Positions 13,883 through 64,000 of a stretch of 64,000 bases of DNA are shown one piece after another. A model generated the notes under the pieces. That model worked only from the letters and a program-made list of their open reading frames with translations. It searched no databases and was not told the DNA's origin. Source of the stretch: Heterotrichella gracilis (taxonomy: Eukaryota; Sar; Xanthophyceae; Tribonematales; Xanthonemataceae); NCBI GenBank assembly GCA_032358255.1, contig JAULBX010008662.1:50409-114408 (forward strand). The letters run 5' to 3'. The position numbers were made by a program, and so were the translations under genes. The stretch's first letter is position 1. Every line of letters starts with the position of its first letter.

Positions 13883-16800
13883 CTGCAGCTTTGGTGGGCA
13901 CGCATCATCTGCTGCCAGCTTCAGAACCCGCTTGAAACTGTTGTTTGACGCAATGTAGGCAGCACAGTGAGGAGCCAGCAGCAGCAGGAGGCGCAGGGCA
14001 GAACGGGTCATGGTATCTCGGATGCGCCTGTTGCCAAGAGGGGTGGAGGATGGTGAAAGGATAAGGTGCATGGACGTTTGCCCTGTTTACATTGGGTTGT
14101 ACATTATTTTGTGGCTAGGCTTGTACGAGTCACTTCAGTGTTGAGCTTGATGTGCTTCACATCATGCTTGCGATGGGCAGTATGAAGCTTCATCGATGTT
14201 TCATCGATCTTCTTTGATCAACCTTCTACCGATGAAAAGTACAGTTGCAAGGACTCCATGCATATCATTTTTGATGAGTCAAGAGTACCAGCTTACAGTG
14301 TGAGCAAGGCCAGGCACATGTCCACATATCCTGGTCTTGAGAGTGCTTGGCCAGCGAAGCTGCGGGTTTTGGTCATGGTGGATGCGGCCTCCATCTGCTG
14401 CTGCAGGTGCTGTGTGCCAGGCCCCTGCATAGCCTTCAGCCATGTACTTTGAGAAGGACATCCATCTAGCTCAAGCTCTACTGCCAGCACAACCAGGTGT
14501 AGCCACAGCTGTAGCGTGTCCAACCTGCAGTGAAAGAAGGGGCCAGATATGCTCTTGGATTAAAGAAATTATGGAAGTCAAGAGTAACATGTAGGAAAGG
14601 AATGTGCTACACAAACTCAAAAATATAAAGCGAGGCCCAAAGCAACCTGTGTCCTAGGCTTGTACCATCCAATGCAGACACCCAGCATGCAGCAATGGAA
14701 TAAAGGCACTCATCCCATGCACAACAGTGCTAACTATGGTTGAGCTGCATAGATGCATACATGCACAGCAGCTCCAAGGCATCCCTATTATAGGCATTTT
14801 TTACTGGAAAAAAATTAAAAAAAAAGCAGCTCCAAGTTTGTATTTACCCCCAAATTTTGGCATCCTAAATGGAAACACGTACTGATCGCAAAAGTCTGCA
14901 TCGATTGCATAGTCCCTCCGCTTTGGCAGCTTTGGCAACCTCTTTGCCAACTTTGCTACCCATCCTGAAGGCAGCGTTTCCAGCAGTGTGTCCCAGAGCG
15001 CGTACTTCCACCCCCCCTCGCGCGTGTCATCTTGCACCCCCAGGCCTTGATAAAATTGCCGCAGGATTGCAACAGCAATGCGGGGAATTTGGCTGAAGCC
15101 TCCGCTGGCGCTGCTAAGCAAAAGCTCTGTCTTGAAATAGCTGCTGATTGTCGTGATCAGCCACGCCATGCATGTCTTGGAGCAGCAGATGGCAGTGCAA
15201 GAGCCATCTGATTGTGCAATCAGGCTGCAACTGTACACTGTGAAATTCCCCATACAAGCCTTGGCCCTGACAATGCAGCCCATCACAGTCTCAGACTGGA
15301 GGCAGGTCGAACACAGCTGCTCCAGCAAAGCCAAAGACCCCAGAAATGACACCAGATTTCCAAACCCAGGCACCGCTGCCAGCTTGGAGTCCCTCTGCCA
15401 GATGTCGCACAGCTCCTCCACCTGTGCCAGCAAGTCCTCCGCGGCACTCCAGAACAGCGCCTGGGGGTGCATACTGGGGGAGGGCGAGGTGCGGTGGGTG
15501 GCGCCTGAGAGGAGCACTGGCTTGTGGTACTCCCGGGTCAGCTGCACCAGTTGGGTAACAATCTGCATGACAGCCTGGAGGGCTCCAGGCAGGAGTCCTG
15601 GCAGGGCATGCGCCTCCTGCACAGGTGGGCTGCTGTTCATGATGCACAGTGCTGCGCTGGCTGCAAGAAGCGCCGCAGCATGGGCGCTTGCCAGGCTGCT
15701 GGGTGGTGATTGGCTGTTGGTGCTGCTGAGCTGGCACGGGCGCTGGGATGATGGGTGAGCGCCAGTACTGCCACCTCCCACACCTCCCTACCAAGAACTT
15801 GCTGCCTTTCCACACTGACAAACCGCGCCAGTACCTTCATGGCCAAGGCCAAATGCATGTCTGGCAGCTGTGCAGCATACGGCTCGCCACTGCCGCAGCC
15901 TAGCCACAGCTGCCGCATGTTTGCAAGCATGCTTTGACCTGCTTGGATGATCTGACCTTTAGCAATTGTCTCTGACGGCTGGTAAGACAATATCGATAGC
16001 CAAGTCAACGTTGGAGTTGACCGGGGATCATGGCTCTGCAGTTGTCGTGCCGCTGTTCCCGGGTGGTCCCCATCAGGTTCTATATCACTGTAGTCAGTCT
16101 CCGCCCACCACTCACTCCATGCACCCAGTGCACAACCTGCCATGCTTGCAGCCACCTCCTGCAAAGCAGCGGTGACGGACAGGGGGATAGGACTTCTACA
16201 AATCTACCTCAGGGGAAACGAACCTGCCATGTATTTGGGGGTTTCAGTTTATAATATAAGACTAAAGCCTAAAATCTCAAGCCTAAACCCTACATATGCA
16301 TTTTGCTACACTTGTGTGGACGCCACCCGCCCATCTGATGATTCATGGTAGTACCAGCGTCTCAATAGGGGCTCCAAAAGCTGTAATGCTGTGCCGGCAG
16401 CCTGAAGTGGGCCCTCCTTGCAATCACAAGATGCAGCATTCTACAAATGCATCATGAATTATTCGAGTGACAACTTTGTGAGTTGATTCCGTAAAATGAA
16501 TTTCATAGTGGACATATGTGTGCATTGTTTTCCCTTGACCCGCTACTAAACAACCCCCCTCCCACACCTCTACCCATATCCTACCTGTACCAGATCCCCA
16601 CATATGCCTCTCACTTGCGCGGTGTACTTCTGGAACGGTGCATCCAGCAGCTGGAGTGCCATCTGGCGAGCTGCCAGTGAAAGCAGGCTGCCTGGGGCTG
16701 CAATGCCCTCCTCCGCAACTGCCTTAACCCTTCTGAGCACATCCTTAACTTGCGGCGTATCCATTACGTACTCCTCATCAGTCATGCCCAGCCATGGGGA

Positions 16801-18410
16801 TGCTTCAGATTGCAGAGTGGTTTTTACCATGGACATCAGCAGGTCAATAGCCATGCCATGTGTGCAAGCCTGCAGGTGGGCTCGAAGTGCTGCCACAGAA
16901 AAATAAGCCCCTGCAATCAGGCGATGCGCTTGCTGGAATGATTGCTGTTGGCAACATGATGTGCTGTAGAGTTTGCGCCAAAATCAAGGCATTATGGCTG
17001 AAATCTCCCATACCCTCCCAAATTGGAGGGTGTAGTGATGGGTGCACTCTAGATGGGGCGTGATGACAGGTAAAATGCTGTGCAGACACCTGTATGTTAG
17101 CTTACTGCATGGTTGCAATACATCGATGATAATGTCAGTTTTACACCTGTGGCGTCCAAAATCAGCATCCCGGCACTGTTCGTGTTCACAGTCCTGTATA
17201 GCATGAAGCGGGTGTGCACTGTTATAAACGTCATACATCACATTTGCATAGCCAACCCCCACTCACCTCGTTCTGGCCCCACAAGCTCTGTCAGCAGATT
17301 CAGGAAGGCCACATGCGTTGCAGCGCACAGCGTACCCCTGGCCGGCCACAGGTCAGCGCCTCCTCAAGCGCAGCCACCCTCACCCCCCTCTCGGAGTAGC
17401 ACACTCCCCACAGCCCCACCAGGTGGTCTTGCAGAGGGCTTGCTTGGCATCTGGTCACCCAGTCCGCCCACACCAGGGGGTGTGACAGCACGCATGTGAT
17501 GCATAGGAGGAGTTCGTGGGCTTGGTGCTGGTGGCCATCATGGTACAGCATGTGCACCTTGTGGAGCAGCGCATGGGGTGTTATCTGGAACTGTATTGGC
17601 CGGATGGACACGTAGGAGATTGTCTCGGGAAGACCTGCGGGATAAGCAAGCGTCAAATGACTTGTGCAAACAGGAAAACAGCATTGCGTAATCAGCCAGG
17701 CTTGGGTGAAGCATCGCGTTCCATGCCCCTACGCTGATATAGCCAAGGTGCTTATACTACATAACTTCCTGGTATACATAAACCATCCTGATATAAACAC
17801 AGTGCACAATGTACACACAGTGCACACACATCATGCAGCGCAATGCAGGCATGATGGGTGGTGCAATGCTACCGGCAACTGCCGTAGCACGGGCATAAGA
17901 TGACGCATTGCAGCGTGTGGAGCTTGGCCAGGCCAGCATGCAAATCCCCGTACAGCTCATGCGATACTGACAGGTACATAAGAAATGAGTATGCGCCCTT
18001 GATGTCCAGGCTCCTGAGTTGACGTCTAATGGGAACATCTGACAATTGAGTTAGTACACACTAACTCATATGAGCGGATTTCCCCTTTGCCATTTCTCTC
18101 CTCCTTTACCGTGTGCAAGGTTTTAGCTTGGCTTCCCATGCTCACCTTTGAAGTGGAGTGCTGGTACCACGTAGCATGACGAGAGCAGTGGAGAAGACCT
18201 GGTGCAGCAGCCTGGCTCTGCTTTTGCTGGGAGGTAGTGGTGTTTCTGGCACGACTGGCAAGCAGGAAGCTGTGGAGAGTGACTGCCAGGGAAGACAAAG
18301 TCTTGGCCGTGAAGCAGCACCAGGTTGAGTGTCAGGTTGTGAAGGGCTTGCTGAGGCTGCTCACACAAACAAGCCTCGAAGGCATCGTTGTTGGTGTCTG
18401 CTGTAGACAT
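13883..18410 (-). pseudogene. SWIM-family copy A: zinc finger deleted, two frameshifts
   Basis: Exons on the minus strand: 18410-18146, 17634-17267, 16910-16585, 16158-14848, 14524-14297, 14027-about 13883. Each aligns with an exon of copy B (20.1-25.6 kb). The product starts MSTADTNNDAFEACL and shares PHALL, LSHPLVW, EEGIAAPGSLLSL and the REYHKPVL region. Two things mark decay. Exon 1 stops at HFK, and everything up to the end of copy B exon 2, including the CxCx9CxH finger, is missing. Relative to copies B and C there are single-base deletions near 17340 (CGPGRGT becomes CGRPGVR, then a stop) and near 15750 (shifting out of LSSTNSQSPPSS). The exon equivalent to B5+B6 is continuous, with no intron. 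Either this is a recent pseudogene or the two indels are assembly errors in a finger-less paralog. Confidence 0.72.
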
Positions 18411-19263
18411 GGTGCTGGGGCTGCTCCTCGCGTGGTTGCTCCCAGCCTCGTCTTGCTAGCAACCTTCGAGGCTGCTAGACTATTCAACACCTTTTGATAT
18501 GAGGCATGGGGAGCTTTCTTTCACGATTTCCTCAACTAGCCCCCCTAGATTCACAAAGGGGGTGACATGTCCACAAGAACTACTGCCAAACCTGAGGCAC
18601 AATATTACGCCCGTATGGCGTGAAACTCTAGACACAATGAAAGGAAGAATAAGCAAGGCTGCTTTTTGGTGCACGTATTAACTTCGCGTGCAGATATACC
18701 TGCCAGGCAATATGCCACTGATGCATGCACCGCATATGCATGCATTGGCGTGGCACACGAAGAACTGTAAACGTGCCTCCGCACCACTCTCCAAAACACT
18801 GTCGACTATTTAAAGTGGTCAACGCCAATCAAACCCTTATTTAGGGTTATGGATATTAGCAGGAAGTATCTATCACGCCTGATACTCGCGCACTCAGCAG
18901 TCACCAATAAATTTTGTTTACAGCATAAACGGTTACCGTGGTGGAATCCCGGGACCCTTGTGTCATATATTCATGAGCGAAAAGGTGCAGTGCGTAGCAG
19001 TGTGCGTTTGTCAATTACAATGTGCAAGCCTGCAGTTTGTGGTCAAACTCTTGGATGCCAGGTCATGCCGAATTCTCACTCATTAGCCTGCAGGCTGGTT
19101 GGAACCATCTTAACTGTCCCAAATGAATTTGATGCCAAGCTGCTCACTTGAGCGAGTACTGCGGCACTGGATGCATCCAATGATTCATCCCAATAAGACC
19201 TTTTTCAGGTTGGAGTCTTAATCCCAAAATGCCCTGCCCCTACCACTGGCAAGCGGCAGGTGT
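18411..19263. other. Intergenic, no supported gene
   Basis: This lies upstream of copy A and downstream of copy B. A TTATTTAGGGTTAT motif is present near 18838. Short open frames here have no paralogous counterpart. It probably holds the promoter of copy A, but no element was identified. Confidence 0.35.
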
Positions 19264-19452
19264 CTAGTCTATTTCACCTTCGGAATCTTCCATATCGTGC
19301 TCAGAGTGTTCCAAGAACCATGCTGCCTCATCTTGCTCCACGCCTGGATCTGAGCCTGGGTCCGAGCTTGTGTCTGTGCCAGCAAGCCAGCGGTTAGTGC
19401 ATGTGCAGCATTGCCCGCCATGTACCCCAACACCCACTCTAATTTGCAGGGA
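19264..19452 (-). CDS. Possible acidic C-terminal exon of SWIM copy B
   Basis: A minus-strand open frame reads TSSDPGSDPGVEQDEAAW and ends HSEHDMEDSEGEID then a stop. The composition is typical of an acidic protein tail. It lies about 0.7 kb downstream of the last paralog-supported exon of copy B, in the same orientation. No copy A or C equivalent is available, and the acceptor (around a TGGCACAG or AAATTAG) is not resolved. It could equally be a chance frame. Confidence 0.25.
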   Translation of the reverse strand, partial: SLQIRVGVGVHGGQCCTCTNRWLAGTDTSSDPGSDPGVEQDEAAWFLEHSEHDMEDSEGEID

Positions 19453-20122
19453 AACTGTATGCGCAGAGATGGTCATCTGAGCCTTGTCACCTGAGCCTTG
19501 TAACACAACGACATGGCGTTACCATCGGTCACTACGTTGAAGATTGGTCACCACATTGACATTCACAGGCATGTGCCATCTCCGCACCTGTGTCTGTATC
19601 ATCAAGCATTCCCCGCGGCCCTAGCAACAGGACTCTTGTGTGATGCACAACCTGCAGGGAACAGGGATGGTGCAGTGTATCAGATTTGCCATTTTTATTC
19701 TCTTCAATTTAAAGTAAATGTAACTGTTTCTGGATATCGTATATAAAAGGTGAGCCAGACACCACCGTGAATCTCACCTGCAGCAAAGCGGAGGCAAGTC
19801 AGGCAAGCGCTTTGCCTCAAGTCCGATCCATGCTGTGTTCAGAAGCGATGCAAGAGCAGCAACCATTTCTACTTACAATGTCATGAAAGGCTGTACTTAA
19901 CAATCCAGCCACTTGAACGCTCAGCAAGCCTTGGCAGAAGATTTAACATCCCACCAGATGGTTAGCTACGACCGTCGCACTTGGCAACGCCACACAGAAT
20001 CTCAGCCTTCGGCTAATTGGCTTGTCCTGCCTTGTTGACCTTCCTTTTGCGCATCCATTTCTGCTAATAACCCCCTTCCCAGCATGTATTACCCCATGCT
20101 TGCACATTCCCACCCAGCAGCA

Positions 20123-20152
20123 TAAACCCTAAACCCTAAATCCTAAACCCTA
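20123..20152. repeat. Interstitial telomere-like repeat (CCCTAAA)
   Basis: Four consecutive CCCTAAA-type units (one TCCTAAA variant), about 24 nt beyond the likely donor of the last recognised exon of SWIM copy B. Confidence 0.88.
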
Positions 20153-23100
20153 GACAGCCCAGCCCGCCACGCACCTGCTCATGCCAGGACCCGTCAAGGT
20201 GTGGGTCCAGCTCAATCTCACCATTGCTCCCCAACCCCATCATCGCCCCGTACTCTGCAGCGTACGGCAGCTGCGCAATAACATCACTCATGAGATGGGC
20301 ATACACTTGGATCACTGGTTGGTACGCCTCATGCTCTGCCAGCACCACGATGCGCTTGAACCGCTTGTGCGCCGCGATGAAGGCGGCATGTGCAGGGGCC
20401 AGCAGCAGCAGCAGGCGGAGCGCACAGCGGTGTATGGTCTCTGGGAGGCACCTGTTGCCAAGGGGGGTGGAGCAGGGTTAACCTGTGTGTAAAGGCATCC
20501 TGGTGGCCTTGAGTGAAAAGAGAAAGGCATTCCAGCCGCCATCGGCTTATTGCCTCGCCTGGCATTGAATGGCATGCGCAGAATGCGGTACATATCGCTA
20601 GTGCTCGGAGCCTTTTGCCATGGACTTTGACCACTTGTAAATTCTTTGCAGTGCAAACAAAAAGTTCGTCCCATCAGTTCACATTAATGTCATTTTGCTT
20701 CAGGGCAGTTGCAAGAAAAGGACTATAAGGAAAATAACGGCATAGTCGTGTCAAGCTGGGCGAGGCAAGTATAGTGCTGCTTACCTTGTGAGCAAGATGA
20801 AGCACATGTCCACGCATTCTTGCGCTGAGAGTGCACTACCAGTGGGACTGTGAGTTTCGGTCACAGTGGGTGCACCCTCCATGCGCTGCTGTGAGGAATG
20901 TGTGTCAGCCCCACGCGTGGCCTCACTGCCTGTGCCCTGAGAAGATCCTTCCTCCATGTGCTGCTGCGGGGGTTGCGAGTCATCGCCCTGCATGGCCTCC
21001 AGGCCTGTGCGTTGAGAAGACTCTTCCTTCAGCTGGATCTCCAGTGCCAGGCTGATCACATGTAGACACAGCAGCAGCGTGCCCTCCCTGCAGCCATGAA
21101 GGAAGAAACCCTGTTCAGGGGTGTAGGGTCTAGGAATCGCAGGCACAGCAGCAGCGTGAGACCACACGTAGATGTGTAGTTTATAAGACTGGTCCCTTTA
21201 CATTTTTCTAAAATCTGAAACACTTACTCGTAGCAAGTGCCTTGTTTGCCCTTGGGGGTGAGCCTTGGCGCACTCTTTGCCAGCTCCACCACCCTGGTCA
21301 AAGACACAGCTTGGAGCAGGCTCTCCCAGAGCGTGTGTTTCCACCTCCCCTGATGTGTGTCATCTTGTACTCCCAGGCCCTGGTGGAAGTGGCGCAGGAT
21401 GGTGGCAGCCGTGTTCGGCAGTCCCTGGGAGGCCCCTGGGGGATCGCTGGGCAGCAGGGCTGTCTGAAAAAAGCTGCTGATTGTCTTGACCAGCCACGTC
21501 ATTACGATTTTGGAGTCACAGATGGCAGTGCAGGGGGCTTCTGATGAGGCAGCCAGGCTGCAGCCGTAGGTAATGAACCTCTCCACTTCAACCTGCACCA
21601 TGACAAGCGGATTTAAATGTGCGAGGCAAATATTTGATTATTTTATAAGTACGCGCCTCACCTCAAATGCAAGGGCGTACTGCTAATCAGACTGTGTTTC
21701 TGCAATGCATGCAATTAGCTGACTAGCCAAAGTGACTTCCGATTTATCTTTCACTGCATGCACTGAGGGTGAGGGGGGTGGGGCTGTATGCTCATATGTG
21801 AACAGAAATAACAGTAATCATGACAATAATATACCTGTGCCGTGACATTGCGCCCCGCTACCCCAGAGTGCAGGCTGATCCAGCACAGCTGCTCCAGCAC
21901 AGGAAGCGACCCAATGAGGCACAACAAATCCCCAAAGCCAGCCACCGCTGCCAGCTTGGCATCACTCTGCCAGGTGTCACACAGCACCTGCACCTGCGCC
22001 AGCAGGTCAGCTGCGGTATCCCAAAACAGCGCCAGCGCGTGCATGCTGGGGGAGGGCGAGGCATGGTGGGTGAAGCCCGATGGCAGCACTGGCTTGTGGT
22101 ACCGCCGGGTCAGCTGCACCACATGAGCCAAGATCTGTGTGGCTGCCTGGATGGCTCCTGGCAGGGGTCCAGTCGTCGTGTCAGCCTCGTGCACAGGTGG
22201 GGTGCTGGCCAAGATGCACAGTGCTGCGCTAGTTGCATGCATTGCCGCAGCGTGGGTGCTTGCCAAGCTGGCCAGGCTGCTGGGTGGTGACTGGCTGTTG
22301 CCGCTGCTGAGCTGGCGCAGGCACTGGGACCAATGCGGGAGCGACAGAACCGCCGCCTCCCACACGCACGCCTCTCTACCCAGGCCTTGCTGCGCCCCAC
22401 CCCTGACCAGATGGGCGAGCACCCGTATGGCGGTGGCATGGTGCAGGTCTGGCAGCGGGGCAACGTGGGGATCCCCACTGTCGCTCAGAAATTGGTGCAG
22501 CAGTATGTGTGCTACCATGCTCTGGCTTTGTTGGGGGCCAGGCGGTTTCAAAAGCCCTGCCAAGGTCATGAGTGAGCGCGGATCACTGGGCTCCTGTTGT
22601 AGCGCTGCCGCTCCCGGGTTGCCCCCATCTGGTTCTCTATCTCTATACCTCGTCTCCGCCCACCACTGCCTCCAAGCATCCAGCGCACAACCTGCCAGGC
22701 TTGCAGTCACCTCCTGCAATGCAGCGGTACAAGAAAGGGGGTTAAGACCCCAACAATTTCTACCTCCTGGCGATCACAAGGATGCAACATTCTACAGATG
22801 CAAATGATTAACTCAATTGAAGTATGGAGATCAATTTTTGTAGCGCGAATTTCACCATGGACTCAAGTGCATTTGCTATCTCAAACCTACTACTGCATTA
22901 CCACTGGCTCCCTCCCCCACCTCTAACCCATCTTCCCACCTGTGCCAGATCCCCACACATGCCTCCCACTCGCGCGGTGTACTCCTGGAACGGTGCATCC
23001 AGCAGCTGAATTGCCACCTGGCAAGCTGTCAGAGATAGCAGGCTGCCTGGGGCTGCAATGCCCTCCTCCGCAACTGCCACCACCCTCCCGAGCACATCCT

Positions 23101-25583
23101 CAACATGCGGCTTTTCCATCAAGCACTCTTCAACAGTCATGTCCATCCAGGGGCACGGGTGGTGCCGTAGAGTGGTGTCTACCATCAGCATCAGCAGGTC
23201 AATAGCCATGTCATGTGCGCATGCCCGCTGGTGGGCTCGAAGCGCTGCCACATAAAAGTACGCCCCTGCAACCAGGCAAATGCCCTCGGCTTGGGTGCTT
23301 GTTCTTGCCAATGCGCTCGGTTTGAGCAGCGGTGGTTGGCAAGAAGTGGTGCTGTAGGGTTTGGGGTTGCTTAGTGGACAGAGGTTTTAGGGTCTTTACC
23401 ACCTACTCGTGCCACAACCCACTCCGTGGTTGGGTGGGTTCAGGATTGGTTTTAAAGAGGTATGTTCACATGAGTGGGCTGATGTTGCAGATAGATTGAG
23501 AACTACACTAGGGGCATTAAAGCCTGCAGCTATGCTATTTCCCTTCACACGGAGGTATAGATGATAAGTAAGACATATACCTATATACACTCCCCCACCA
23601 CGATGTAATACAACACAAAGTTCTTGACACCACAGCCAACCCCCATCTCCCTTGCCACCCACCTCGCTCCGGCCCCAGCAGCTCTGTCATCACATCCAGG
23701 AAGGCCACATGCGTTGCGGAGCACAGCGTACCCCTGCCAGGCCCGCAGGTCAGCACCTCCTCAAGCACAGCAACCCTTTTTCCTCTTTCCGGGTAGCACA
23801 AAACCCACAGCCCCACCAGGCTGTTTTGCAGAGGACTTGATGAGCATCCGTCCGCCCAGTCCCCCCACACCAGGGGGTGTGACAGCGCGCATGTGATGCT
23901 TAGGAGGAGGGCACGCGCCTGCTGCCGCTGACCGTCCTGGTACAGTATGTGAGCCTTCAGGAGCGCCTTGGTGAGCAGCGCATGGGGGTCCATCTGGGCT
24001 TGATTCGGCCGGCTGGCCACAAAGGGGACTGCCTCGGGAAGGCCTGTGGGATAAGCAAGCGTGAAAATGACGCACTCGAGCAGACAAACAACAAGGAATA
24101 ATCAAGCAGGTGAACAGCCATCCAGGCAAGCGCGTGAGTGCTGCGCCCGCACATGAAGACAGTGCACACATACCATGCGGCGCAATGCAGGCAAGCGATG
24201 ATAGCTGGTGCACAGTGCACAATTGTGAGATGGTGCAGGTCGAATAAACATTAAATACTGTCAGATTTGACAGATTTGATAACGATGGCTACAAGCCGCA
24301 GGCTCTGACATTACCCTAATACTGTACAAAATATTGTTGTATTATTATTACTATTGTTCAATTCACTTTACAGGATTATATTTGCACTCCCATGCTCACC
24401 TTGACCACCGACGCTCACCCCATACGCATCCCACACCGACACCACCGTCTTGGGCACAGTGCTTTCCATCAGGAGGTCAACCACCTCCCCATCACAAGCC
24501 TGCGCCCTCTCAAGCCTGTTGGTGGGTTCGGATCGGCTGACATCGTTACCCCATTGCCCTTCTTGTTGCCACCAAGGGGGGAAGGCGAGCGAGCGATTGC
24601 CGGGTACCTCACAGGATGACAGTGCTCGCCACATGGCCAGCTGGGCATTGTTGATGGAAGCTGCAAGTGGGCAAATGAGAAAATGAGGCAGCGACGTTGC
24701 ATATGCAGGGGGATGGTCAGGGAAATTTGTGTGCATCGCTGCTTTTGGCGATGGAATTTCAATTCATTTCATTTCACCGGTGATTGACAGAAATACAAAT
24801 CCTCAAGTTTCCTGTATTGAAAATTTAAGGAAACGAAATGGTATTACCCAGGGTTTAAAGAAAGTGCAGGCCGGGGTTTGGATTACGCTTACCTGTGTCC
24901 CGCAGGAAGGAGATGAGGTCTGTATCGCTGTATTCTGAACCAGCTTTGATACTGCCCCAGTTGGCCACCTTGCGCCTGAGCTGTGCATAGTCCAGCACGT
25001 GCAGGGGAGGCCCGGTAAGGAGCGCAGCCACGGCTGTGATGTGGGCGCACCACAGCACTGGGAAGGGCACCTCATGGCACTGGCAGGAGGCTGATACCAG
25101 CTGGCCTGAAGCATCCAGCCGCAGCACAACACCATACATGGCGGGTTCAGGTGAATGGTCGGTGGTCACTTCACGGGAGTCATGTACCACGGCCACCAGC
25201 TTATCGTCATTCTGAACCAGCCCGAGAACAATGCAGTGGTCAACTGTTGGGCAGCACTGGGAGTCTGAAGGGGTGGGTTTGAAGCTGGAGTCTGCACTGA
25301 ACGCTGCCAGTTGAGCGGGTGTAAAGTGGACTGCTGGTACCACGTAGCACGGCGAGGGCGATGGAGAAGACCTAGTGCTGCAGCCTGACTCTGTTATTGC
25401 TGGGAGGTAGTGGTGCTTCTGGCACGAATGGCAAGCAGGGTCCTCTGGCGAGTGGCTGCCAGGGAAGGCAAAGTCTTGACCATGCAGCAGCACCAGGTTG
25501 AGTGTCAGGTTGTGAAGCGCTTGCTGAGGCTGCTCATGCAAGCAAGCCTCGAAGGGGTCGAGATGGGTGCCAGCTGTATACAT
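20136..25583 (-). CDS. SWIM-type zinc-finger protein, ZSWIM-like (copy B, most intact)
   Basis: Exons: 25583-24893, 24660-24400, 24043-23663, 23265-22940, 22713-21835, 21592-21228, 21087-20785, 20451-about 20176 (or to the stop at 20136). All junctions keep frame. Exon 1 (start MYTAGTHLDPFEACL) carries a CxCx9CxH finger, CQCHEVPFPVLWCAH, at C167, C169, C179 and H181, followed by ITAVAALL. This is the SWIM signature. The order afterwards recalls animal ZSWIM4/5/6/8: a GVSVWDAYGVS-like segment, a helical stretch around ALSHPLVWGDW, and a long alpha-helical repeat region. ZSWIM8 is a cullin-RING substrate receptor. Whether this protein has such a role is unknown; no BC or cullin box was identified. 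It sits tandem to copy A. The intron at 21593-21834 is absent from copies A and C. The C-terminus is unresolved. Confidence 0.72.
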
Positions 25584-26830: not shown

Positions 26831-29742
26831 TCAATACCGGCGGTTATCCCTCCCGCGGCTGCCTCCCCCCCGGTAATCGTCATACCCCCTCCTGTCGCGG
26901 TCATACCCGCGTTCATACCGGCCCCCGCCCCCACCGCGGTACAGGTCGGCGGGGGGCGCAATCTCCGCCCCCCGGTAGTCGCGCCTGCTGCCGTCCCGGT
27001 CCCGCTCACGCTCGCGATCTCTGCACGACCACCAACAAATGTGATCAAGTCAGTTACCCCATGTATTCTGCGGTACAGCCTGCGCCAACCAATATGTCAT
27101 CTGCTTGATACCACCCAGATGCTACCCATCTAGGTTAGTTACAGTTAGTTAGTTAGTTAGTTGCACCAGGATATATGGCCATGAGGGGGGGCACACCCTT
27201 CTATCAACTACTTGTTCAGACAGCAACTGTGACCGACAATTCAAGGTCCAACGCGGGACATATTCAGACCCTAAACCCTACACCCAAACCCTACCTTTCC
27301 CTGGACCTGGAGCGCTCCCTGACCCTCTCCCTCTCCCTCGGCCGCTCTCTCTCCCTGTCCCTGTCCCTCTCACGGTCGCGTTCCCTGCACCATGCCGCCA
27401 TCAGCAACGGTTGCAGCTGCAATGCAAGGTATTCCAAGCCCGCCAACCGCTCATGAGCAGGTAAGCACACAATTGGAGGGCAGACAGGAGTGCACAGCAT
27501 GCATGCTGTGCTGCTTGCAACTTTACTTATCTGATCATTTACTGACAGGTCTATGTGAGGTTTTTCACTTGATATACCGTGCATTTCCCAAGAGTTTATA
27601 ACCCTACAGCCCGCCTGCTTCATTTAAGAATGACCGACAAAATTACACCAGCCCTCACCTGGGCCGCTCCCGTTCCCTCTCCCTGTCCCTCCCCTCTCGC
27701 TCCGCCTCCCGTGGCTCCTTTGGCTCCAGCGGCACCACCCCCCTGGTCCGCGTGCTCATCTTCTCCTGCAGTTCCGCCTGCTTGTCGCGGATGGCCTTCC
27801 AGCCAAGGAACTGCTTGCCAGACAGGTGGTCCTGTGGCAGGCCGAGGGAAAGCTGTAGCGATTTATGCAAGGGTTTGGGAACAGGTATTTAAGGGTGGGC
27901 GTGCACCAGAGCAGAGCGCAGGATGCAGGTATGATCATGTTCACATGAATCATGATCAATGATATCATGTGGTTTGGCATCCAGCTCCTGCTGATGGCGA
28001 CAAGCGGCCCTGCTCCTACCGACGTAGCCCCCGGGCCCCACGAAAGTGAGTCCACATCAGCAGCATATGAACATAATCTCCTTCCTCCAGCCATGACTAG
28101 ATGCCACATGCAATACGCGCCAGTGCATCCACCGCTTCTCCCCTTCATTTCGCACCCCCCTCCAATTCCCCTCCTGTGTCGCACCTTTCTCCGCTGGTCG
28201 TTGTCCGTGCTGTTGATGAACACGCCGCACACATCGCACACAGTCATGCTCCTGTCGGTGGCAGACAGCTGCTTGACGATGCTCTCGTAGCTGCGCTTCA
28301 GGTTCTCCGCTTGCTGCGCCAGGGCAAGGGATGCGTCCACATCCCCGCTCTCAGCAGCAGCCTCAGACTGCTCGAGGGCCTCTGCGGGGGCGAGGGTTTA
28401 GGGTTTAGGGTGGCGGTGGGGTTATGGAGTACTGGTCAGGAAGTGCCGTGGGGCTGTGTTGGGCTCGAAGGCTGTTGGGGCACCAGCCTACGTTCAGCCC
28501 TTGTTGAGGGTTTAGGATTTATTGTGGTTGCTTCGTGGTTTGGAAGGGGCGCAACAGTGACAAGTGACAAGAAGTGGACAAGGCACATGGCGACCTACAC
28601 CTCACATCCAAGCTGCCACAGGCAACCCACGCAAGCCCAGGCTGCAAACTAGGTGCTATTACAAACGCTGCCAACCTTTCTGCTGCTGTTGCAAGGCGTC
28701 CATCCTCGCCTTTTCTTCGAGGGTGGGCTCCCGCGGAGCACTCTCGTTGTTGGCGCGCTCCTTCTGCCGCTCAATCTTTCGGTCCATGTCTCGAATCAGC
28801 TGGTTGAGCAGTGCCAGGAGGTCATGCTCGTAGCCATACCTGCACGCGGGAGAAGTGCAGGGTTGGCAATGAGGGTGTGCAATGAGGGTGCGAATATGCG
28901 CAGCTGGGAAGGTAGCGGTGCACAGAACACTTGTGGCATACGAAAACAAGGCCGTCAGATATTCAAGGGAGCAGTGCAGTGCGCACGGGTGTTTATGGCT
29001 CCAGGTGTACACTGCAATTTATAGGCATGCAGGATGCATAGATAATACCACATGGCCACGCGCCGTGCACTTGTGCCTTTCACAAGTGTCAGTCCCACGC
29101 ACTAACCTGTCTCTTTCCCGCTCTTCCAGTGCATCCCACTCAGTCTGCAGCTCATCCCACCCCAACTCGTCTTCATGCATCTCGAACGTGCACACACCTG
29201 CAAGCCACACCACAGCTGGCACCTCGAAACAGCGCCATGCAGGGCAGAGCAGCAAGGGGGCCCAAACACGTGGCGGGAAAGTGCTGAGATACTGGGAGTG
29301 AACCCTAATAGACAAGGAAAAAACTACGAGAGTTGCAAGGGTGCGCATGCGAGGCAATGACAGGGGTACAGCGAGGGAAAGTAAAGGACTGTACCACACA
29401 GGGAGCTTCATATGAGCATCTACAGCTTGCAGCGAGCTGTACAGCACGGCCCCACACAATGCTTGGCAGTTGCCCTATCACGCAGAAAACCAAGGTGTTG
29501 GAAGGCGAGTGGCTGGTTGGTCTGGGGGCCCCTTGCATATGCATGCATAGCATTGTTGTTCAAAACGTACCTAAGTCGCTCTTCGTGTTTTTGAATAAAC
29601 CGTACGGACAGAGTCCTGCAAGAGCATGTTTGCAGACCTCAGGATCGGAGAAGTGCCTCCCCTTGTTGGTGCGTTTGTCCAGCGGGACATCCCTCTCCTT
29701 GCCCATCAGCTCATCCAACATTTGCCGCATTGCGTCCACCAT
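26831..29742 (-). CDS. LUC7-like U1 snRNP-associated splicing factor
   Basis: Seven exons: 29742-29571, 29197-29107, 28839-28676, 28381-28185, 27831-27659, 27384-27295, 27020-26831 (TGA). The start MVDAMRQMLDELMGKERD is the canonical LUC7 N-terminus; an in-frame TTG lies just upstream but this ATG is preferred. Two CCCH/CCHH-type zinc fingers are visible: CKHALAGLCPYGLF in exon 1, and VCDVCGVFIN (exon 4) with HLSGKQFLGW (exon 5). A Glu/Arg-rich coiled coil lies between them. The tail is rich in RE/RD/RS dipeptides, then RG-rich (YRGGGGGRYERGY), and ends RGRDNRRY. The spacing NTKSDLG and QLIRDMDRKIERQ favours the LUC7L3 type. LUC7 proteins help U1 snRNP choose 5' splice sites in the nucleus. 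Confidence 0.93.
27269..27294. repeat. Telomere-like repeat abutting a LUC7 donor
   Basis: On the minus strand the intron starts GTAGGGTTTGGG and continues into TAGGGTTTAGGG, so the repeat begins inside the 5' splice site of the 27384-27295 exon. Confidence 0.85.
28394..28410. repeat. Telomere-like repeat beside a LUC7 acceptor
   Basis: Two TTTAGGG units on the plus strand. On the coding strand, CCCTAAACCCTAAACCCT occupies the pyrimidine-tract position about 12 nt before the acceptor of the 28381-28185 exon. Confidence 0.85.
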
Positions 29743-29751
29743 TGTGCTCAA

Positions 29752-30697: not shown

Positions 30698-32746
30698 CTA
30701 TTGCTGCACGTTCCCATTCTCAGGGGCATCCCAGAAGGAGCGCAGCCGCAATCTGCCCTCTGCACAGTCTGCAATAACTCCCTTCGCAATGCCCAGCACC
30801 TGAGGTTGAATCTCCTCCATTGCTTGCGTGGCATCAAGAACTCTCCAGCTGGAGTCCTTGAGAGACTTGAATTCTTGCTGCACCTGCAAAAATAACACGC
30901 ACATGCGGGCTTTCCATACCGATCATGCACCATAACTGCAGTGTGCAACCATGCGAGTTGATACTTACAATTCTGCCATGTGCAGTACACTTATACAAAG
31001 GGATGTGGGCTGCAGAGGATGATACAGGCCACGCAACAAATCCAAATCTCCTTTCATGCCCATCACCATTTCTATTACCCTCATTAAAATGGTTTTAAAA
31101 CACACTGCCAATGCGGGCGGGATACATCGCACACACCCATGCACCCCCACATCGACCGCACAGCATGTCCCCTTGTACCCACCTCCCGTTGGAACTGCTC
31201 CTTCTCGTATCGCTCCTCTCCGAATCCCCCCCTTGCAGCCGCCTGCTCAATGGTCAGGTCGAGGTAGATGACGACGTCAGGGCAGGGCAGGCCTACCTCC
31301 GGAGCCATGCACCATTGCCTGCACCCATGCAAGAACAAATCACAATGGCTCCTTTGCATATAGCAGTCTGTAGTTAGCTACATGGCTTCAACAGTCACCC
31401 CAATTCTATATTGCAAGTAACGGGTGGCGGGTGTTTGCGGTGCAAGCAAACCCAGAAACCACTACCCCTAGACCGATGATTAGGCGGCACAGCTGCGCGA
31501 AATTGCCGCTGTGTGACTGTACATATGCAAGTATAGAGCGATCTATTGCTCATGCAAAATTATCCAGGCCTGGGCACACAGCCTCCAGCAATTAGCCTCG
31601 TACTTTCAAGCAACATAAGCCGCATGGGAGGCGGTGTGATCGAGCATGCACTTGCCTCTCCAGCCCTGGCGCGTGCTTGGCGGCGGTAAAGGCAACACCA
31701 GAGAAGGAATAGCGGTCCACCACCAGGGTGGTTCCGGCTGAAAGCTTTGCAAGCATGCTGTCCCTGCACGCCAGCAATTGCCATTGCTTTTCACGCGCAC
31801 AAGATCAGTCAGACGAAGGGTTTGCTCCACAAAGAGGCAGTAAGCAGCGAGGGACTGTAACTCCCTAGGGGAGTGAAGCGGGAGTGACGTGCAACTGACA
31901 GCATACCCTTGACAAGGGCATTGCCTGTTGTTACCGACATTACCGAGCAGAATCATGCGTTGGTGGCTGGTTGCACCCGCCTTGATGCAAGCCTCCTCGC
32001 ACCGTTTCTCCCACCGGTTGGCTGCAAACAGCAGGTGGATTGCCGCGTCGTCGATGTTCTTTGCATTAGCCAAGTATGCATTGATCATCTGCCCAATCTC
32101 GGTGGTGCGGTCTGGAAACCGCCAGAGCTCGGCGTCGACCTGTGTGCATGTGTTGCGCGATGGGTGGTGGTGGGCAAGCGCTGCTGCTCTGCAGTGCATA
32201 ACCCCAAGCTAGGGTTGGGGTGTGCAGCTTGCAGTGATGGGGTGTGGAAACATGCGCTGTAAAAACCATATGCATGCATGCAGCGAAAGATCCTTCTTTG
32301 TTGCAGAATCATCTCTGCAACAGTGCACACGGTATTCCATTTTACGATGAGCTGCAAATCGCTAGTTTAAGGGCCCTTGCGCGGACCATCTTGTACTGTT
32401 GTTTCCTGCTCATGTTCAATGTCCTTACCCCTTCAGCCTTCAAGTTATCCACCAACTTCGCTGCCTGGGTGCTTTTGCCACATCTGTCGATGCCTTCAAA
32501 GAGTATGAAGGCTCCCCGGGGAGCTAGCTCTGCCATGTGTGCCCTTGTTGCTTGGCACCGAGTTGTGCTGGCACAGAGAGGGGAGACTCGAGCTGGTTGA
32601 ACGGTGTTGACGAAACCCTTCGGGACCGATAGTGATAGGAAGCTAGAGTTGAAGCTTGTGCTGCTGCAACCCGGCTTGGAAGCAAACGTTTTGAAAGCCT
32701 TGGCAGCGGAGCTACCTGTCAAGGACGAGCAGCATATTCGAAGCAT
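30698..32746 (-). CDS. Thymidylate (dTMP) kinase with organelle-type presequence
   Basis: Five exons: 32746-32429, 32139-32003, 31763-31656, 31318-31183, 30883-30698. The enzyme phosphorylates dTMP to dTDP using ATP for DNA synthesis. Motifs in order: P-loop [33 protein letters not shown], the DRY motif [26 protein letters not shown], and lid-region GFGEERYE, ending NVQQ. The eukaryotic DTYMK/CDC8 order is complete. About 70 residues precede the core ([16 protein letters not shown]...), Ser/Ala/Lys-rich with few acids, consistent with plastid or mitochondrial import. An internal Met (MAELAPRG) could serve a cytosolic form. The 31656/31318 junction needs a GC donor (AG|GCAAGT), which restores [12 protein letters not shown] in perfect phase. 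Confidence 0.95.
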
Positions 32747-42250: not shown

Positions 42251-45155
42251 ATGACACACTGGAAAGCGTCAGTTGTTGGGCCCGTGGTGGTGCTGCTCAG
42301 CATATGGAGAACCGTGCACGGCTTTGTAATCCCAGACTACACATCAATAGCAGGTAATTTGCTGCACAACTGTTTGGGTATGGCCCTTTGTGGGCACTTC
42401 ACGTGTTATTATAGCTGTGGTGTGGAAGTAGTAGGTGGACTTGCCAGCCTAAGACACTTACTCACTGGCATCATGGTGCACCTAAGTGGGCTGTTGCTAT
42501 GTGGAAAGTGCTATTCATGCTTGCAGCCTGTAGCGGCAGGCGAGTGTGCTGGCAGAGCAATACCCCCCCCACACGGTTCGTGGTTGTGGTGTTTAACCGT
42601 TTGTTGGCTGTGCTGCTCCAGACCTTGTGCTTCCAGAGGGCTATCCACTTGAAGAGCATGCAGTGACCACCCAAGACGGATACATCCTCACTGTCTATCG
42701 TCTACCACATGGCAAAGGCACAACGGTCGCCGCGCACGCACCTAGGTACACAAGTGCCTCTCAGTTACAAAATAACCAGCATGCATGCATTTTCACAGAC
42801 AGACCATACCTGCGGTTGTACGCTCGCACATGGTCCCTTGGCTTGACCCTGCAGGGAGGAACTTGGCGTTGGAAGGAACTGCTAGAACCCTTTAGGGTTT
42901 TATAACTGTTTAGGGTTTATGTTGCATAGCAGATATACGATATATCCCCGCCGATCATTGGAAATTACTGGCGGTTCTGCGGGTCACAGGAGGCCAGCAG
43001 TGCTTCTCCAGCACGGCTTACTTGACAGCTGCGCAGCCTGGCTGTTCAACGGGCCGAACCACAGCCTAGGGTTCATCCTAGCGGACGCAGGGTACGATGT
43101 GTGGTTGGGCAACAGCCGGGGGAACACCTTCAGCAGCAAGCACACCACGCTTTCAACGGAGGACGTGGCATTTTGGCAGTTCAGCTACGATGAAATGGCC
43201 GCCTATGATCTGCCGGCTATGGTGGGATACATTCGGGGCCACACAGGGGTGGACACAATCTCCTATGTTGGTACGTTGAACTTTACACCTTTTATATTTG
43301 GGCAGATGCCATGGCATGCAAGGCTAGCGGTGCTGTATGAGCCACATGTGCCGCACCACTCACCATCTTTGCAGCTGCATCCGATACGCCCAGCTGGAGG
43401 ACTTTGATGCATCACGATCACAGTGGGGAAATTCCTACATCTACAAATCCTGCTGCGCACAGACCTGAATTTTATGCTTAGAAGACCACTGATGTCCACC
43501 GGTGCAGGGCACTCCCAGGGGAGCACCAGCGCACTTGCAGCCCTGAGCTCCAATGCTGACTTTAGCAGCCACATCAGCATCGGCATCATGCTGGGCCCCG
43601 TTGCGTTTGCCAGCCACATTACAAACCCCTTCATGGGGTCCCTGGCGCGCTTGGACACCGATCAGGTGCGGTTAGGGGGTTGAGGCACGGACAGGAACGA
43701 TTTATTGCAATGCATACCTTACGGCATGTGTCTGGCAAACTTTGCACAATGGGAATTTGCCATTGACTGCAAGGACGGCACACACATTTCCCCCACACTT
43801 CCCGTCGGTTTGCTGCTCTTCATGATCAAGCACATGGTGGCCAGGGAGCTGCACGCCATGTGGGCACATAGTAGTGCCTCACCCGCACCCTCACTGCGTA
43901 ATTTGCATGGTCTTTTACGCTCACAGCTCCCCCCTGCGCCTAAAGGTGCTTGACCTGCTGGGTGTGCGCCAGTTCCTCCCCAACAACCGCACCGTATCGC
44001 GCGCCCTGTCCCGCCTCTGCACCACCCAGCCCCAGTACTGCGGCAGCATCATGAAGGGCATCTGCGGGTACAATGAGGCGAATGTGGACACCAAGCACCT
44101 GCCGGTCGTCATCATGTATGAGCCAGCAGGTGGGGCGGGTGGTGAAACCCTAGTCGAGGGTTGCGTGGGTGGGGGATTGCTTGCATGGAAAGGGTGGTAT
44201 GGCTGTTGTTTGCTGGCGGTCACTTTGTGCGCTCCACAGATTGTTGCACAAGCTATGTGTTTATGTTACAGGTGGACGAAGTGATGCACAATCATGTATT
44301 GCCATTGGCGGTATGGCAATTGACCTGCGGTGCCCAGTGAGCTAGCATCCACGTTGCATCTGCACAAAAGAATTTTTTGTCAAGATTTCCTCGTCTTAAC
44401 CTCCCTTTCACTCGCTGCAGGCACTAGCGTCCAGAATGTGGCACATTGGGCGCAAGGGGTGCGCCAAACCCTCCCTGTGTTCCAAAAATTCGACTACGGC
44501 AGCAAGTGCACAACCACCCTCGGCCAACCCCAGCTGTGTAACCAGCGCATCTACGGCTCAGAATCCCCTCCACCCTACAACCTGGGCGCCATTTCCATCC
44601 CCATTGCGCTGTTCACAGGGGGGTTGGACCAGCTGGCTGACGAGGCGGATGCAGTGCTGCTGGTACAGGTGGGTAATGCTGAGGACCAGACCTGGTTTAG
44701 GGTTTAGGGTTTAGGTTTGCAGCGCATTCTTCTCCTAGTCATGGGCCATGCATGCACACCAGTGCGGGGTGAAGCAATGCCATGCCACTCGCAGCATTGC
44801 CTCTGTACGTGGCACACCTGCTTGGGTAGTGGGTATTTTGCTGTCCTGGGAGTAACCAATGGGCACCATTGAGGGGATATATTGTAGGATTCTTCGTACA
44901 CTTCCGTTGTCGCCAGGTATTGAACATGCTTTCCTGCAGACCTCCTCACAACTGGCTGCCTGTTTGTCCCAGGCGCTGAAGGAGTCGGTGCTGGTGTTCT
45001 CAGACAACGAGCCCAGCTACGAGCACTTGGACTTTGTGTGGGGCATCAACGCACCCGAGAAGATTTACGGCAAGGTCATGACGCTACTGGAGAAATACAG
45101 CCCACACCCTACTGGAGGGTTTCCGGCCACTGCATCCGCCGCAGCCTCAGCGTAG
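42251..45155 (+). CDS. Acid (lysosomal/gastric-type) lipase, AB-hydrolase family
   Basis: Exons: 42251-42353, 42622-about 42735, about 42950-43270, 43508-43665, 43946-44129, 44421-44668, 44973-45155 (TAG). It hydrolyses triacylglycerol or steryl esters in the secretory or vacuolar lumen. The start [17 protein letters not shown] is a signal peptide. Family motifs: [33 protein letters not shown] (oxyanion-hole HG), [27 protein letters not shown], nucleophile [11 protein letters not shown] (glycine codon split by an intron), [15 protein letters not shown], acid residue in [10 protein letters not shown], and histidine in YEHLDFVWG. The triad is complete. GLDQLAD replaces the usual GHDWLAD. The exon 2/3 junction is uncertain because no donor/acceptor pair stands out. 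The C-terminus ends in an Ala/Ser-rich tail. Confidence 0.93.
42891..42919. repeat. Telomere-like repeat in lipase intron
   Basis: TTTAGGGTTT, a short spacer, then another TTTAGGGTTTAT, in the intron just before the third lipase exon. Confidence 0.8.
44696..44717. repeat. Telomere-like repeat near a lipase donor
   Basis: Three TTTAGGG-type units starting 28 nt after the donor of the 44421-44668 lipase exon. Confidence 0.87.
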
Positions 45156-50365: not shown

Positions 50366-50519
50366 TGGGGTCACGTGTGGGGCGTGAACCGTCGCAGTGG
50401 TGCTGAACAGGTTCTGCGGGTGTGAGGTGGAGGTGGCGTGTGTGAGTGTTCGATGCCGTGCCTCCTGGGGGGTTTTGAGTGGGTAAGGATGCACGGACAA
50501 CGTGAGGCCTTTTTCATTG

Positions 50520-51366: not shown

Positions 51367-54727
<3,361 letters not shown>

Positions 54728-59290: not shown

Positions 59291-62200
59291 ATGCTGCCAG
59301 ACGAACGGGACGACTTTGCTTTTGCTGTGGAAAGGCAGCCTCGACAGTCACTGGAGACGCTTGTGCTCAATGTGGTGGTGCTGCATGGCCATGACTACAC
59401 CTTCCCAGCCAGTTCCTCAAACCCTCCTCCTTGCCAAACCTGCCTCCAGCAGCAGTACATTCCATCCTTCACACCAGACTGCGGTGAAGTCGCAAGCTTG
59501 CTCGAGTCATGCTACGTGGTACCAGCAGCCCGCTTCACACCTGCCCAGCTGTCCATCTTCAAGGCCGAAGGAAGTCTCAACATCGCGCCTGTGGCCTCCC
59601 AACCAGGCGCCAGCTCCAGCCCCGCTATTGACCAGTGCATTATATGTGGACTGGTACAGAATGGCGCAGACCTTGTGGCTGTGGTCAAAGACACAGACGT
59701 GTATACACCTGGTCACGCCGCCGAGGGCATGTTTGGTGTGGTGCTGCGCCTGGATGCCACTGACCAGCTCATATCGGCTGCCTGTCAGTGCCACAATGTG
59801 CCTCTGCCAGTACTGTGGTGCAGGCACGCGTTACAGCCATAGCAGCAGCAGGCCCAGGCTGCACGTTTTGGACTACGGAAAGTTGAAACAAAAGATGTTG
59901 AGTGCAGACACCGAAGTCCTTTCTGGCTTCCTAATTCAAACAGGTACGCTCGCTCTTTATGTTCTGGCGGTACGTCTTTTATATGTATCCTCTGATACTA
60001 GGCGCTTATTCCACATGGAATTTAAAACCCTGCCTATATATGTGTAGATGTGATTTGTATGTCCTGCACCGACCAGCTGCTGAAAGCGGCATTCCCTCAA
60101 AACTACCTACCCAGTTGTTTTCCGCTCACTCGTTTAACCACCTCTGTGCAGCTTACAACAACCATGCCCTCCTGCCCATCTGGCGTGCCCTGTCATCCTG
60201 TGTCGGCCCAGGCAAACCCTGGCGCTCCCTGGTCAAACCCCAGTGGCTTGAGGAGTATGAGTCGCCAGTGACCAACAGTAGGGAGGAGAAAATCAGGCTT
60301 GAGAGGGCCCAGGCAAATGCTGTTGAGCTGGTGGAGGTCCTCCAACGCACCGTTCTGCCAAAGACGGGTGTGTCGGTGTGGGATGCGAATGGGGTCAGCA
60401 ACGGTGCACAAGGTAGGCACGGCAATGGGAATAGGGTGGATCTTAGGATTATTGTTGTGACTACATTACCATGCATGTCGACATTCACATACCCTAGCAT
60501 GCACATTAAACTTGCCAAACATTTCTGGTAATATTTAGTTGAAATGACATTGGGTCACACACGGTGTCATTCTAAGTGACCCGAAGTGAAAGGTGGATGA
60601 CACTGTTTTAATTGGCATTCTGCTGCATAATTATGGCCCGGGAGCCAGCATTTTCATCTGCCCTTGATGGGAGTTTTGAAACCCATGTGGCAAACCCGTG
60701 TCAGGGCCTGCAGTCAGCATGTTGTGCTTTTTACATGCTGCACAGTATGGTGTGTGCGTGCATGATGTCAATGCAACCTTCAATTCGCACACATGTCAAT
60801 GCAACATTCGCACACATGCCTGGATTTGTTTTTACAGATGTCAACATGTTTATGCATCCGGCATCGTAAAAAAGTATAGCCATGGTGGCTCATTGTGAAA
60901 ACGTGTACCCATGCTTGCCCTGGGTGCACAGGTCTGCCCGAGACATACCCGGCAGTTCCTAGCCTGTCGGTTCGGTCCCAGATCACCATACAGGCGCTTT
61001 TACACAAGGTGAGCGTCATTTTTTTATGTCTCGGGTGCACAGACTGAATAGTGCCAAGGCGGTACTCGTGCTGTGCTGGTTTGCTTGTTTTGCTTGTCAG
61101 GTATGCTTGTTGTCAAGCTTTGCAGTTTGTGAGAAGACATCAAAATAGTGATAGGTTGCTCAGTGAGGTGACACCGCTGCATGAACTATCTAACATCTCT
61201 GAATCTAATGTCTACACAAACTTGCAAGGTGCGTCTGCTCCACCGGGCCGGCTACCAGCAGCAGGCATGCGACCTCCTCCTCGGCACCACATGTGCGCTG
61301 TCACACCCCCTGGTGTGGGACAATTGGGCTGCACAGCTGGCCCCCATCTCGATGCGGCGCCTCTTGGTGGGGCTGTGGAAGGTGTGCTACCCGGAGGCTG
61401 TGGGCAGGGTGGCTGTGCTGGATGAGGTGCTTATCTGTGGTCCGGACAGGGGCACTATGTGTGCCGCAACGCATGTGGACTTCCTGGACCTGCTCACGGA
61501 TCTGCTGGGAGCTGCATGCGATGGGTAGCTAGGTTGGGTAGCTGACACGTTACTGCAAGCATGAGAAATAGTGGTTTCAGGTGCATGCAGAGTATTTTGA
61601 ACCTTGCAGGTTGGACATTGCACATCCATCAGTAGTCGGGGGCAACATGATGAACACCTATGCTGAGATATGCTTCTCACCCGCCCTAACCTAATGTGTT
61701 AGATGCAATTCATCACAGCAGTATGGGGGGCTTGGTTGTGCAAGCCCATGCTTTGTAAGTGATCCCATTTCACCCACCACTACCTCCTCTCTTGTTACGC
61801 AGGCGTGTACTTCACTGCTGCAGCGCTGCAAGCCCACCAGCAGGCCTGCGCTCGCAATGTGGCTCTGAAACTGCTAGAGGTGCTGTCCTCTCCTATAGCC
61901 TCCTCCCCCATATTGCCAATCAATCCTTTCGACCACATGGACAAGCCCTCGGTGGTATCCCTCAAATCCATGCTGAGCAAAATGTCCGACAAGCGATCAG
62001 CAGCCACAGACAGCCTGCTTGGGATGAGCGCATGGGCGGTAGTGCAAAAGCTCATCGAGGCTCCATCGCAACCTGGAAAAGCAAAGAAACTGGAGCAGTT
62101 TCTGGCATGTGTGAACAGCCTGGGCACGGATCTAGCTCAGGTAAACAAGCCATTCAATTGAATCACTGGCAATTCTGGCATGTTTGCCCCTGCCACCCCG

Positions 62201-64000
62201 CTCTGTTGCAGCACTGCTTAACCCGTGTCTGCGCTTGCGGGCTGACCCCTTCTGCTGCACTAAGAACAGTGTTAGACAAGGACTTTGCTTCTGATCCAAA
62301 GTGAAGATGACTAAACGTGTTACATGGCCTTCCAGCTTGATAACCTAATTTAACATCGTCTCCCTGTCCATACAGGAGCTCTTGTACAACACCGCCTCCT
62401 GTGCGCTGGCCATGAGGAAAGTGCACCTGTCAGATCTTCCAGACGATCCGGCACAACCCAGTCCCCGTGCCAACCAGTGGTCTTACCTTTACCATGGGTT
62501 TGATGACGAAGTGACAACAGCAGCATCAGCAACATTTTGCCTGGACGACAGCGACACTCAGTCAATTTCAGCGCTCTGCACCGCCTGTAATGTGTGTGAG
62601 CACGGCAGCGGACCAACCGCACATGCATGGAGTGCCGCAACTGTGGAGACCACCCGGGAGCACTTGGCTACTGTGTTGCTGCAACGTTTGCCACGGGGCA
62701 ACGGGGAGCCAAATGCCACACCGCTTTCAGAACTGCACCAAGCGGCTGCAGTAGCGGTGCTGGCCCATCTGGACAGGGAGGGAGAGGAGTATGGCATTGA
62801 TGCAGAGCCAGGTGTGTGGGAAGTGGCCGTGTTGTCGCTCACCCATTGGTTCCAGCGCCTGCGCCAGCTCAGCAGCGGCAACAGCCAGTCACCCCCCACC
62901 AGCCTGGCCAGCCTGGCAACCACCCACGCTGCGGCGATCCACGGCACCCGCGCGGCGCTGCTCATCTTGAACTTTGGCGCCCACCATGTAGGAATGCTGC
63001 ACCAGGTGGAGGGGCTGCATGGCGCCATTGTGGCAGCGAAGGAAACCCTCTTGCTGGTGGTGCAGCTGACACGGGAGTACCACAAGCCAGTGCTGGCCTC
63101 GGGCGCCATCCGCCACGCCTCCCCTTCCCCCAGCATGCACACCCAGGTGGTGTTCTGGGATGCCGCAGGGGCGCTGCTGCAGCAGGTGCAGTGGATGTGT
63201 AACACCTGGCAGCGACATGCTGAGCTGGCAGCGGTGAGCAGCTTTGGGGATTTAGTGTCGTCCCTGGGATCGATCCCTGTGCTGGAGCAGCTGTGCCTGG
63301 TCAGCCTGCGGTCAGGGGTGGTGGGCCGTAGCGTCGATGCGCAAAGGCGCTTGGAGCTCTTCCTAGTCTACGGATGCAGTTTGGCTGCACAGTCAGAGTC
63401 CTCCCTGGCAGCGGTTTGCAGCTCCAAGATCGTCATGTCATGGCTGATCAGCACAGTCTGTGGCTTTGAGCTTGCATCCGTCCCTCATCGCCAGTCTTCA
63501 GTGCAGAGCATGTGCACCCATCAGCTGTCAAGCACCGCCGTCACCATCCTGCGCCACTTCCACCAAGGCCTGGGGATGAGGGACAGCATGAGGGAAGGGA
63601 GGTGGGAGTACACGCTGTGGGACAATCTACTGCAAAGCCTCGCCACATGCTTTGATGGGGCCTCAGATGTCGTGGGCTTGCCCAACCACCACAGCTGGCC
63701 GCACCACCATGACGAACATCCGTTTGGTCCCTCGGGGAGCTCAGCTAGAGAGGTCCCCATCCTGCGATGCAGGTGAGTGTACCGTGGCTGCTGGTGTCTA
63801 CATCATGTCATGTCAGGATTGCTGGTCAATTTTCACAATAACTGGGCGACAGGCTGCAATGTCTCCTCTGGGACAGCTACAAGAATGGGTTGCACATTGC
63901 ATTGCACAGGACCACGACAGGGCACTAGGGATAACACTTTAGACGCGGAGATATCACACCGCCTGAGCCGTGCAGGTGGCGCCTTTGCGTCGCTCAGAGG
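59291..64000 (+). CDS. SWIM-type zinc-finger family, copy C (frame broken after the finger; 3' truncated by window)
   Basis: Exons aligned to copy B: 59291-59942, 60152-60412, 60932-61008, 61229-61524, 61803-62140, 62376-63772, with a further exon probably starting near 63976. Exon 1 begins MLPDERDDFAFAVERQ and carries CQCHNVPLPVLWCRH (C165, C167, C177, H179), the SWIM CxCx9CxH. Three codons after the His comes an in-frame TAG at 59840. The conserved LHVLDYGKLK resumes in another frame from about 59862, with no intron-sized gap to explain it. Later exons are clean: GVSVWDANGVS, LSHPLVWDNW, and one long 62376-63772 exon with LSSGNSQSPPTSLASL and REYHKPVLASGA. It has a private intron (61009-61228) splitting copy B's exon 3, and lacks copy B's 21593-21834 intron. 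It is either a pseudogene, a truncated-protein gene, or an assembly error. Confidence 0.7.

Follow-up and report, generated by a model that had tools for sequence, protein, structure and literature searches.

A small, fast-changing and duplicating algal gene family encoding large proteins with a SWIM-like finger

The closest described systems include the SWIM zinc finger (Pfam PF04434), with ligands in the pattern CxCx(n)CxH, and ZSWIM8/EBAX-1/Dora (ZSWIM4/5/6/8; PDB entry 9RWZ), in which the finger lies inside the first 200 residues and is followed by a long region, a layout shared by the proteins described here. Features of ZSWIM4/5/6/8 are a BC box and a cullin box ahead of the SWIM finger and a fold with a dimeric E3 superdomain and HEAT repeats; ZSWIM8 binds Argonaute and brings about its ubiquitylation. 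ZSWIM8 is given as a protein of about 1837 residues that is confined to Bilateria (review, PMC10899785), and the cullin box of ZSWIM proteins as a ZSWIM-specific CUL3-box (PMC13083262). Our literature search found no paper joining ZSWIM8 to green algae or treating SWIM zinc fingers in green algal genomes, and none on SWIM-type finger expansion in Chlamydomonas or on the phylogeny of ZSWIM8 homologues with regard to Bilateria. The window, i.e. the whole stretch of 64,000 nucleotides that was analysed (C88:50409-114408, in a genome of 68.5 Mb on 903 contigs), had been read from its sequence as holding a three-copy, locally expanding SWIM family related to ZSWIM8. Our results reveal a small, fast-changing, duplicating algal family of large proteins (about 1200 residues) with a SWIM-like finger, for which kinship with ZSWIM8 is not supported. 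The copies in the window, with exons (e) numbered as in copy B, are as follows.

13883..18410, minus strand: copy A, a finger-less paralogue; e1 (18146-18410) is in phase with e3 (from 17634)
Copy A, further parts, minus strand: e4 about 16585-16910; e5/e6 from 16158 to about 14860; e7/e8-like pieces to about 13883
20139..25583, minus strand: copy B, an intact eight-exon gene model of 1173 residues
Copy B, exons, minus strand: e1 24893-25583; e2 24400-24660; e3 23663-24043; e4 22940-23265; e5 21835-22713; e6 21228-21592; e7 20785-21087; e8 20139-20451
59291..64000, plus strand: copy C, which ends at the contig end, also the end of the window
Copy C, exons, plus strand: e1 59291-59943; e2 60152-60412; e3 about 60932-61513; e4 61803-62140; e5 and e6 fused, from 62376

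Comparison of translated open reading frames within the window identifies A, B and C as paralogues that correspond exon by exon (E down to 2e-72). A tblastn search of the genome with B gave 28 matches at E<=0.01, 21 of them on contig C88, six on C901 and one on C809; because the best candidates alone are scored, these counts are lower bounds. The 21 matches on C88 are B itself, A and C. The similarity is far above chance. The coordinates and exon-by-exon alignment given by the sequence-only reading are thus borne out, and the paralogy of the three copies supports the duplication that it proposed; its count of three holds for the window and falls short for the genome, in which a fourth copy (D, on C901) and a fifth, fragmentary one lie on other contigs. 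Copy D is known from exon-like pieces, without a whole-gene model: pieces like e1, e2, e3, e5, e6 and e8 occur in the same order as in B, the finger is present, and faint counterparts of e4 (E 0.071) and e7 (E 0.016) lie in between. The fifth copy is an e8-like piece near the start of C809. When three stretches of C901 (20 kb) were compared with the window in search of common neighbours, the stretch that holds D was the only one to match among the matches listed. In all six pairs of A to D, dN/dS over the open parts of e1 to e6 is 0.43-0.50, which points to moderate constraint on the protein level together with fast change. The family is possibly lineage-specific. In the viral and prokaryote sets searched for relatives (viral_contigs and genome_contigs), none of 213 and 66 pattern matches, respectively, was confirmed by tblastn.

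Copy B is, as judged from its sequence, the copy in the window able to encode a whole protein. Its introns are GT-AG with consistent phases, giving a single open frame of 1173 residues; the model was built from sequence alone, with exon boundaries placed by hand under the guidance of paralogue conservation, and its 3' end may be incomplete. The N-terminal part, encoded by e1, carries two cysteine-containing features.

25041..25085, minus strand: SWIM-like finger of B, CQCHEVPFPVLWCAH, with C167, C169, C179 and H181 in the spacing CxCx9CxH
59783..59827, plus strand: SWIM-like finger of C, CQCHNVPLPVLWCRH, also CxCx9CxH, from the ORF translation
25347..25433, minus strand: second cluster of cysteines in B, C51-x2-C54-x13-C68-x10-C79, shared without change by all four copies (A to D)

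The finger that had been described in B and C is present in both translations and absent from A; its four ligands are identical across B, C and D. The four invariant cysteines of the second cluster sit N-terminal to the finger and are kept in A too. In the e1 alignment of B, C and D, the three agree in 69 of the 177 columns free of gaps, and they share eight of the 11 B cysteines located there. The profile evidence for a SWIM finger is mixed: the Pfam SWIM family (PF04434) gave no match to B or C at E<=10, whereas the finger of D aligned with it in register, and with no other Pfam family, at 11.9 bits (E 0.17), under the gathering cut-off of 19.6. This cut-off is a harsh test, since the ZSWIM8 fragment itself scores 20.1 bits; by comparison, L001, which with L002 makes up the genome's two Pfam SWIM matches (on C79 and C101), scores 34.7. 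Profile-profile comparison (hhalign) of the B/C/D finger gave a score of 20.8 against ZSWIM8 (reached by 4 of 200 shuffles; probability about 10 percent), 18.5 against L001 (1 of 200; about 9 percent) and 24.8 against L002 (0 of 200; about 50 percent). Because the shuffles lose the ligand spacing, motif and register are tested together, and the scores imply a finger that is SWIM-like, with no preference for ZSWIM8. An AlphaFold2 model that includes the finger, albeit a poor one (mean pLDDT 31.9), places strands ahead of CxC and helices at CxH and behind it, as in SWIM fingers. The finger is, on these profile comparisons, SWIM-like but weak.

It is conceivable that CxCx9CxH belongs instead to another small cysteine-rich domain, one that includes the N-terminal four-cysteine cluster and is not SWIM, as the four extra invariant cysteines and the lack of a Pfam SWIM match for B and C might suggest. 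We regard this as doubtful given the in-register, if sub-threshold, SWIM match of D, the outcome of the shuffle test and the arrangement of strands and helices that even the poor model retains. A second alternative concerns the source of the finger. SWIM domains occur in MULE/MuDR transposases, and the family finger could have come from such a transposase, or from a different SWIM protein encoded in the genome, and have been fused to an unrelated helical protein. Consistent with this, the highest hhalign score against the three fingers tried is that of L002, from the same genome and likewise CxCx9CxH. L001 and L002 differ from the B/C/D finger in exceeding the Pfam SWIM cut-off, an ORF close to L001 carries cysteines in a RING-like arrangement (by eye), and a tblastn search of their contigs with B gave no match at E<=0.01. 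Pfam finds neither a transposase nor a RING domain in B; in the self-comparison of the window (19 rows), the copies match one another almost exclusively in exons, one 35-bp match being intronic, so that no shared element ends are seen. An origin of this kind appears unlikely.

With respect to ZSWIM8 itself, the likeness is one of layout, and the differences are several. The spacing in ZSWIM8 is CxCx6CxH, compared with CxCx9CxH in the family, which has the extra invariant four-cysteine cluster; B, at 1173 residues, is also shorter than the ZSWIM8 of the cited review. Outside the finger motif no similarity was detectable: the ZSWIM8 chain 9rwz, present in the PDB copy searched, was not matched at E<=10 by B or by profiles of e1 and of e5-e6, and full-length B had no Pfam match at E<=10, hence none to ZSWIM4-8_C or TPR_ZSWIM8. 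Searches of the genome with PF21055 and PF25572 likewise gave no match; the control genomes gave none either. We also considered the motifs through which ZSWIM proteins may engage their ligase partners, for which the following stretch, conserved in all four copies, is relevant.

25479-25520, minus strand (B); 18306-18347, minus strand (A); 59348-59389, plus strand (C); within 8290-9003 of L033, minus strand (D): N-terminal stretch [AS]LxxLxLN[LV]V, then [LV]LHG

Neither a strict BC-box nor a strict cullin-box consensus, the latter of the Cul2 type, was found N-terminal to the finger in A to D, where shuffled sequences give just 0.04-0.12 matches. A loosened BC-box fits the version in D alone (ALRDLALNVV; shuffled mean 0.47), being missed by B (ALHNLTLNLV), C (SLETLVLNVV) and A. 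Over full-length B the strict BC-box occurs zero times (shuffled mean 0.53) and the loosened one twice, both times on the C-terminal side of the finger (shuffled mean 3.53). The absence of such short motifs is weak evidence.

These observations bear on the proposal that the family is a true algal relative of ZSWIM4/5/6/8 and serves as a BC-box/cullin substrate receptor, with Argonaute as a possible target. In its favour are the finger near the N terminus with a long region behind it, the fact that the SWIM finger of ZSWIM8 is also weak against Pfam, the conserved N-terminal stretch whose D version fits the loosened BC-box, and the presence in the genome of four Piwi-domain and five Skp1/Elongin-C-like matches, such that the machinery for a ZSWIM8-type role is not absent. 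Set against these are the lack of any match to the ZSWIM8 chain with B or the two profiles and, in B, to its Pfam families, the lack of strict boxes before the finger in A to D, a finger that resembles that of ZSWIM8 no more than it resembles other SWIM fingers, and the restriction to Bilateria stated in the review (PMC10899785). We judge such a relationship to be most improbable, and the relation to ZSWIM8 that had been drawn from finger position and layout is not supported, although a remote kinship can escape every sequence test used here. The locus gives no support to the tempting claim that a green alga has microRNA-decay receptors of the ZSWIM8 type.

The long helical region described behind the finger in B and C has the standing of a low-confidence prediction, made for e5-e6 of C, where AlphaFold2 places nothing but helices (mean pLDDT 48.1). 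Foldseek searches with this model and with that containing the finger, both poor, returned zero matches each at E<=0.001, and 9rwz was not among the best 50 of 537 and the best 50 of 156 rows, respectively. Of the two results that together would have told against the sequence-only reading, one was obtained, namely the absence of a Pfam SWIM match for B and C; for the other, the fold, the models are too poor (mean pLDDT of 48 and 32) to be a guide. None of Pfam, the PDB sequence search, AlphaFold2 and Foldseek named the family protein. Some Pfam matches well under the cut-off were taken as chance, i.e. PknG_TPR to e1 of B (E 0.21), Ycf4 (E 0.17) and Retinal (E 2.1) to a piece of A, and SlpA_N to a piece of D (E 0.21).

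The explanation that we favour, and consider reasonably probable, is that of a duplicating, possibly lineage-specific algal family that combines a SWIM-like finger with a probably helical scaffold and serves as a binding platform or adaptor, with A and C probably in decay. Each protein has the conserved cysteines near its N terminus and, except for A, the CxCx9CxH finger, and would continue in a long region of mostly helices. With a bound zinc ion the finger would organise the N-terminal domain, and the helices would form a scaffold for a partner, the whole acting as a platform or adaptor. If confirmed, a fast-evolving algal family joins the SWIM-like proteins, and its finger-bearing and finger-less paralogues offer a natural comparison. 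A bolder version, in which the proteins are green-lineage receptors with a SWIM finger and helical scaffold that evolved independently of ZSWIM8 and work alike, as fast-evolving ubiquitin-ligase adaptors with finger-less copies and, in D, a cyclin-like segment, strikes us as very unlikely.

Decay is the probable fate of copies A and C, unless their defects come from the assembly. A has two frameshifts, in e3 (about 17330) and in e5 (about 15770). Its e1 stops at VPALHFK, where the donor resembles that at the end of B e2, and splicing of A e1 to A e3 keeps phase 1; the finger seems to have gone with an in-phase deletion that left e1 running straight into the final bases of e2. In C a net frameshift lies directly 3' of the finger, at about 59828-59858; between WCRH and the conserved LHVLDY there are 31 bases, compared with 36 in B (counted by eye). 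An extra intron appears, by eye, to lie inside e3 of C, and an open stretch of 475 codons spans the counterpart of e5 and e6 of B. In D, a cyclin-like stretch lies between the e4-like and e5-like parts (about 3902-5272 of L033, C901:32001-42000, minus strand); its two pieces, joined by eye, match Cyclin_N at 17.8 bits (E 0.0029), the cut-off being 23. Because the second cyclin-like piece is in one open frame with the e5-like part, D is a possible fusion.

As to the genome setting, 43 light-harvesting-domain matches in the genome support a photosynthetic host. For the best of these, which is CP26-like, the closest PDB chains among the best 60 of 140 matches are 7pi0, 9is4 and 6kac, of which we take 7pi0 to be from Dunaliella and 6kac from Chlamydomonas; we read these matches as good support for a green alga. 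Short TTTAGGG-type telomere-like repeats occur at the modelled 3' end of B (20120-20152), and a 45-column DNA match links them to a stretch near 4.9 kb (4909-4951). A Pfam scan of the neighbours of the family took in 10 ORFs of the window. Protein-kinase-like gene parts lie at 7602-9896 (plus strand), where one ORF matches Pkinase under the cut-off (E 0.026) and a second has no Pfam match, the kinase-like motifs being seen by eye. Four exons score over their Pfam cut-offs, i.e. those of LUC7 (27756-28397, minus strand), thymidylate kinase (31606-32208, minus strand), an alpha/beta hydrolase (42886-43407, plus strand) and an epimerase (51443-52045, plus strand).
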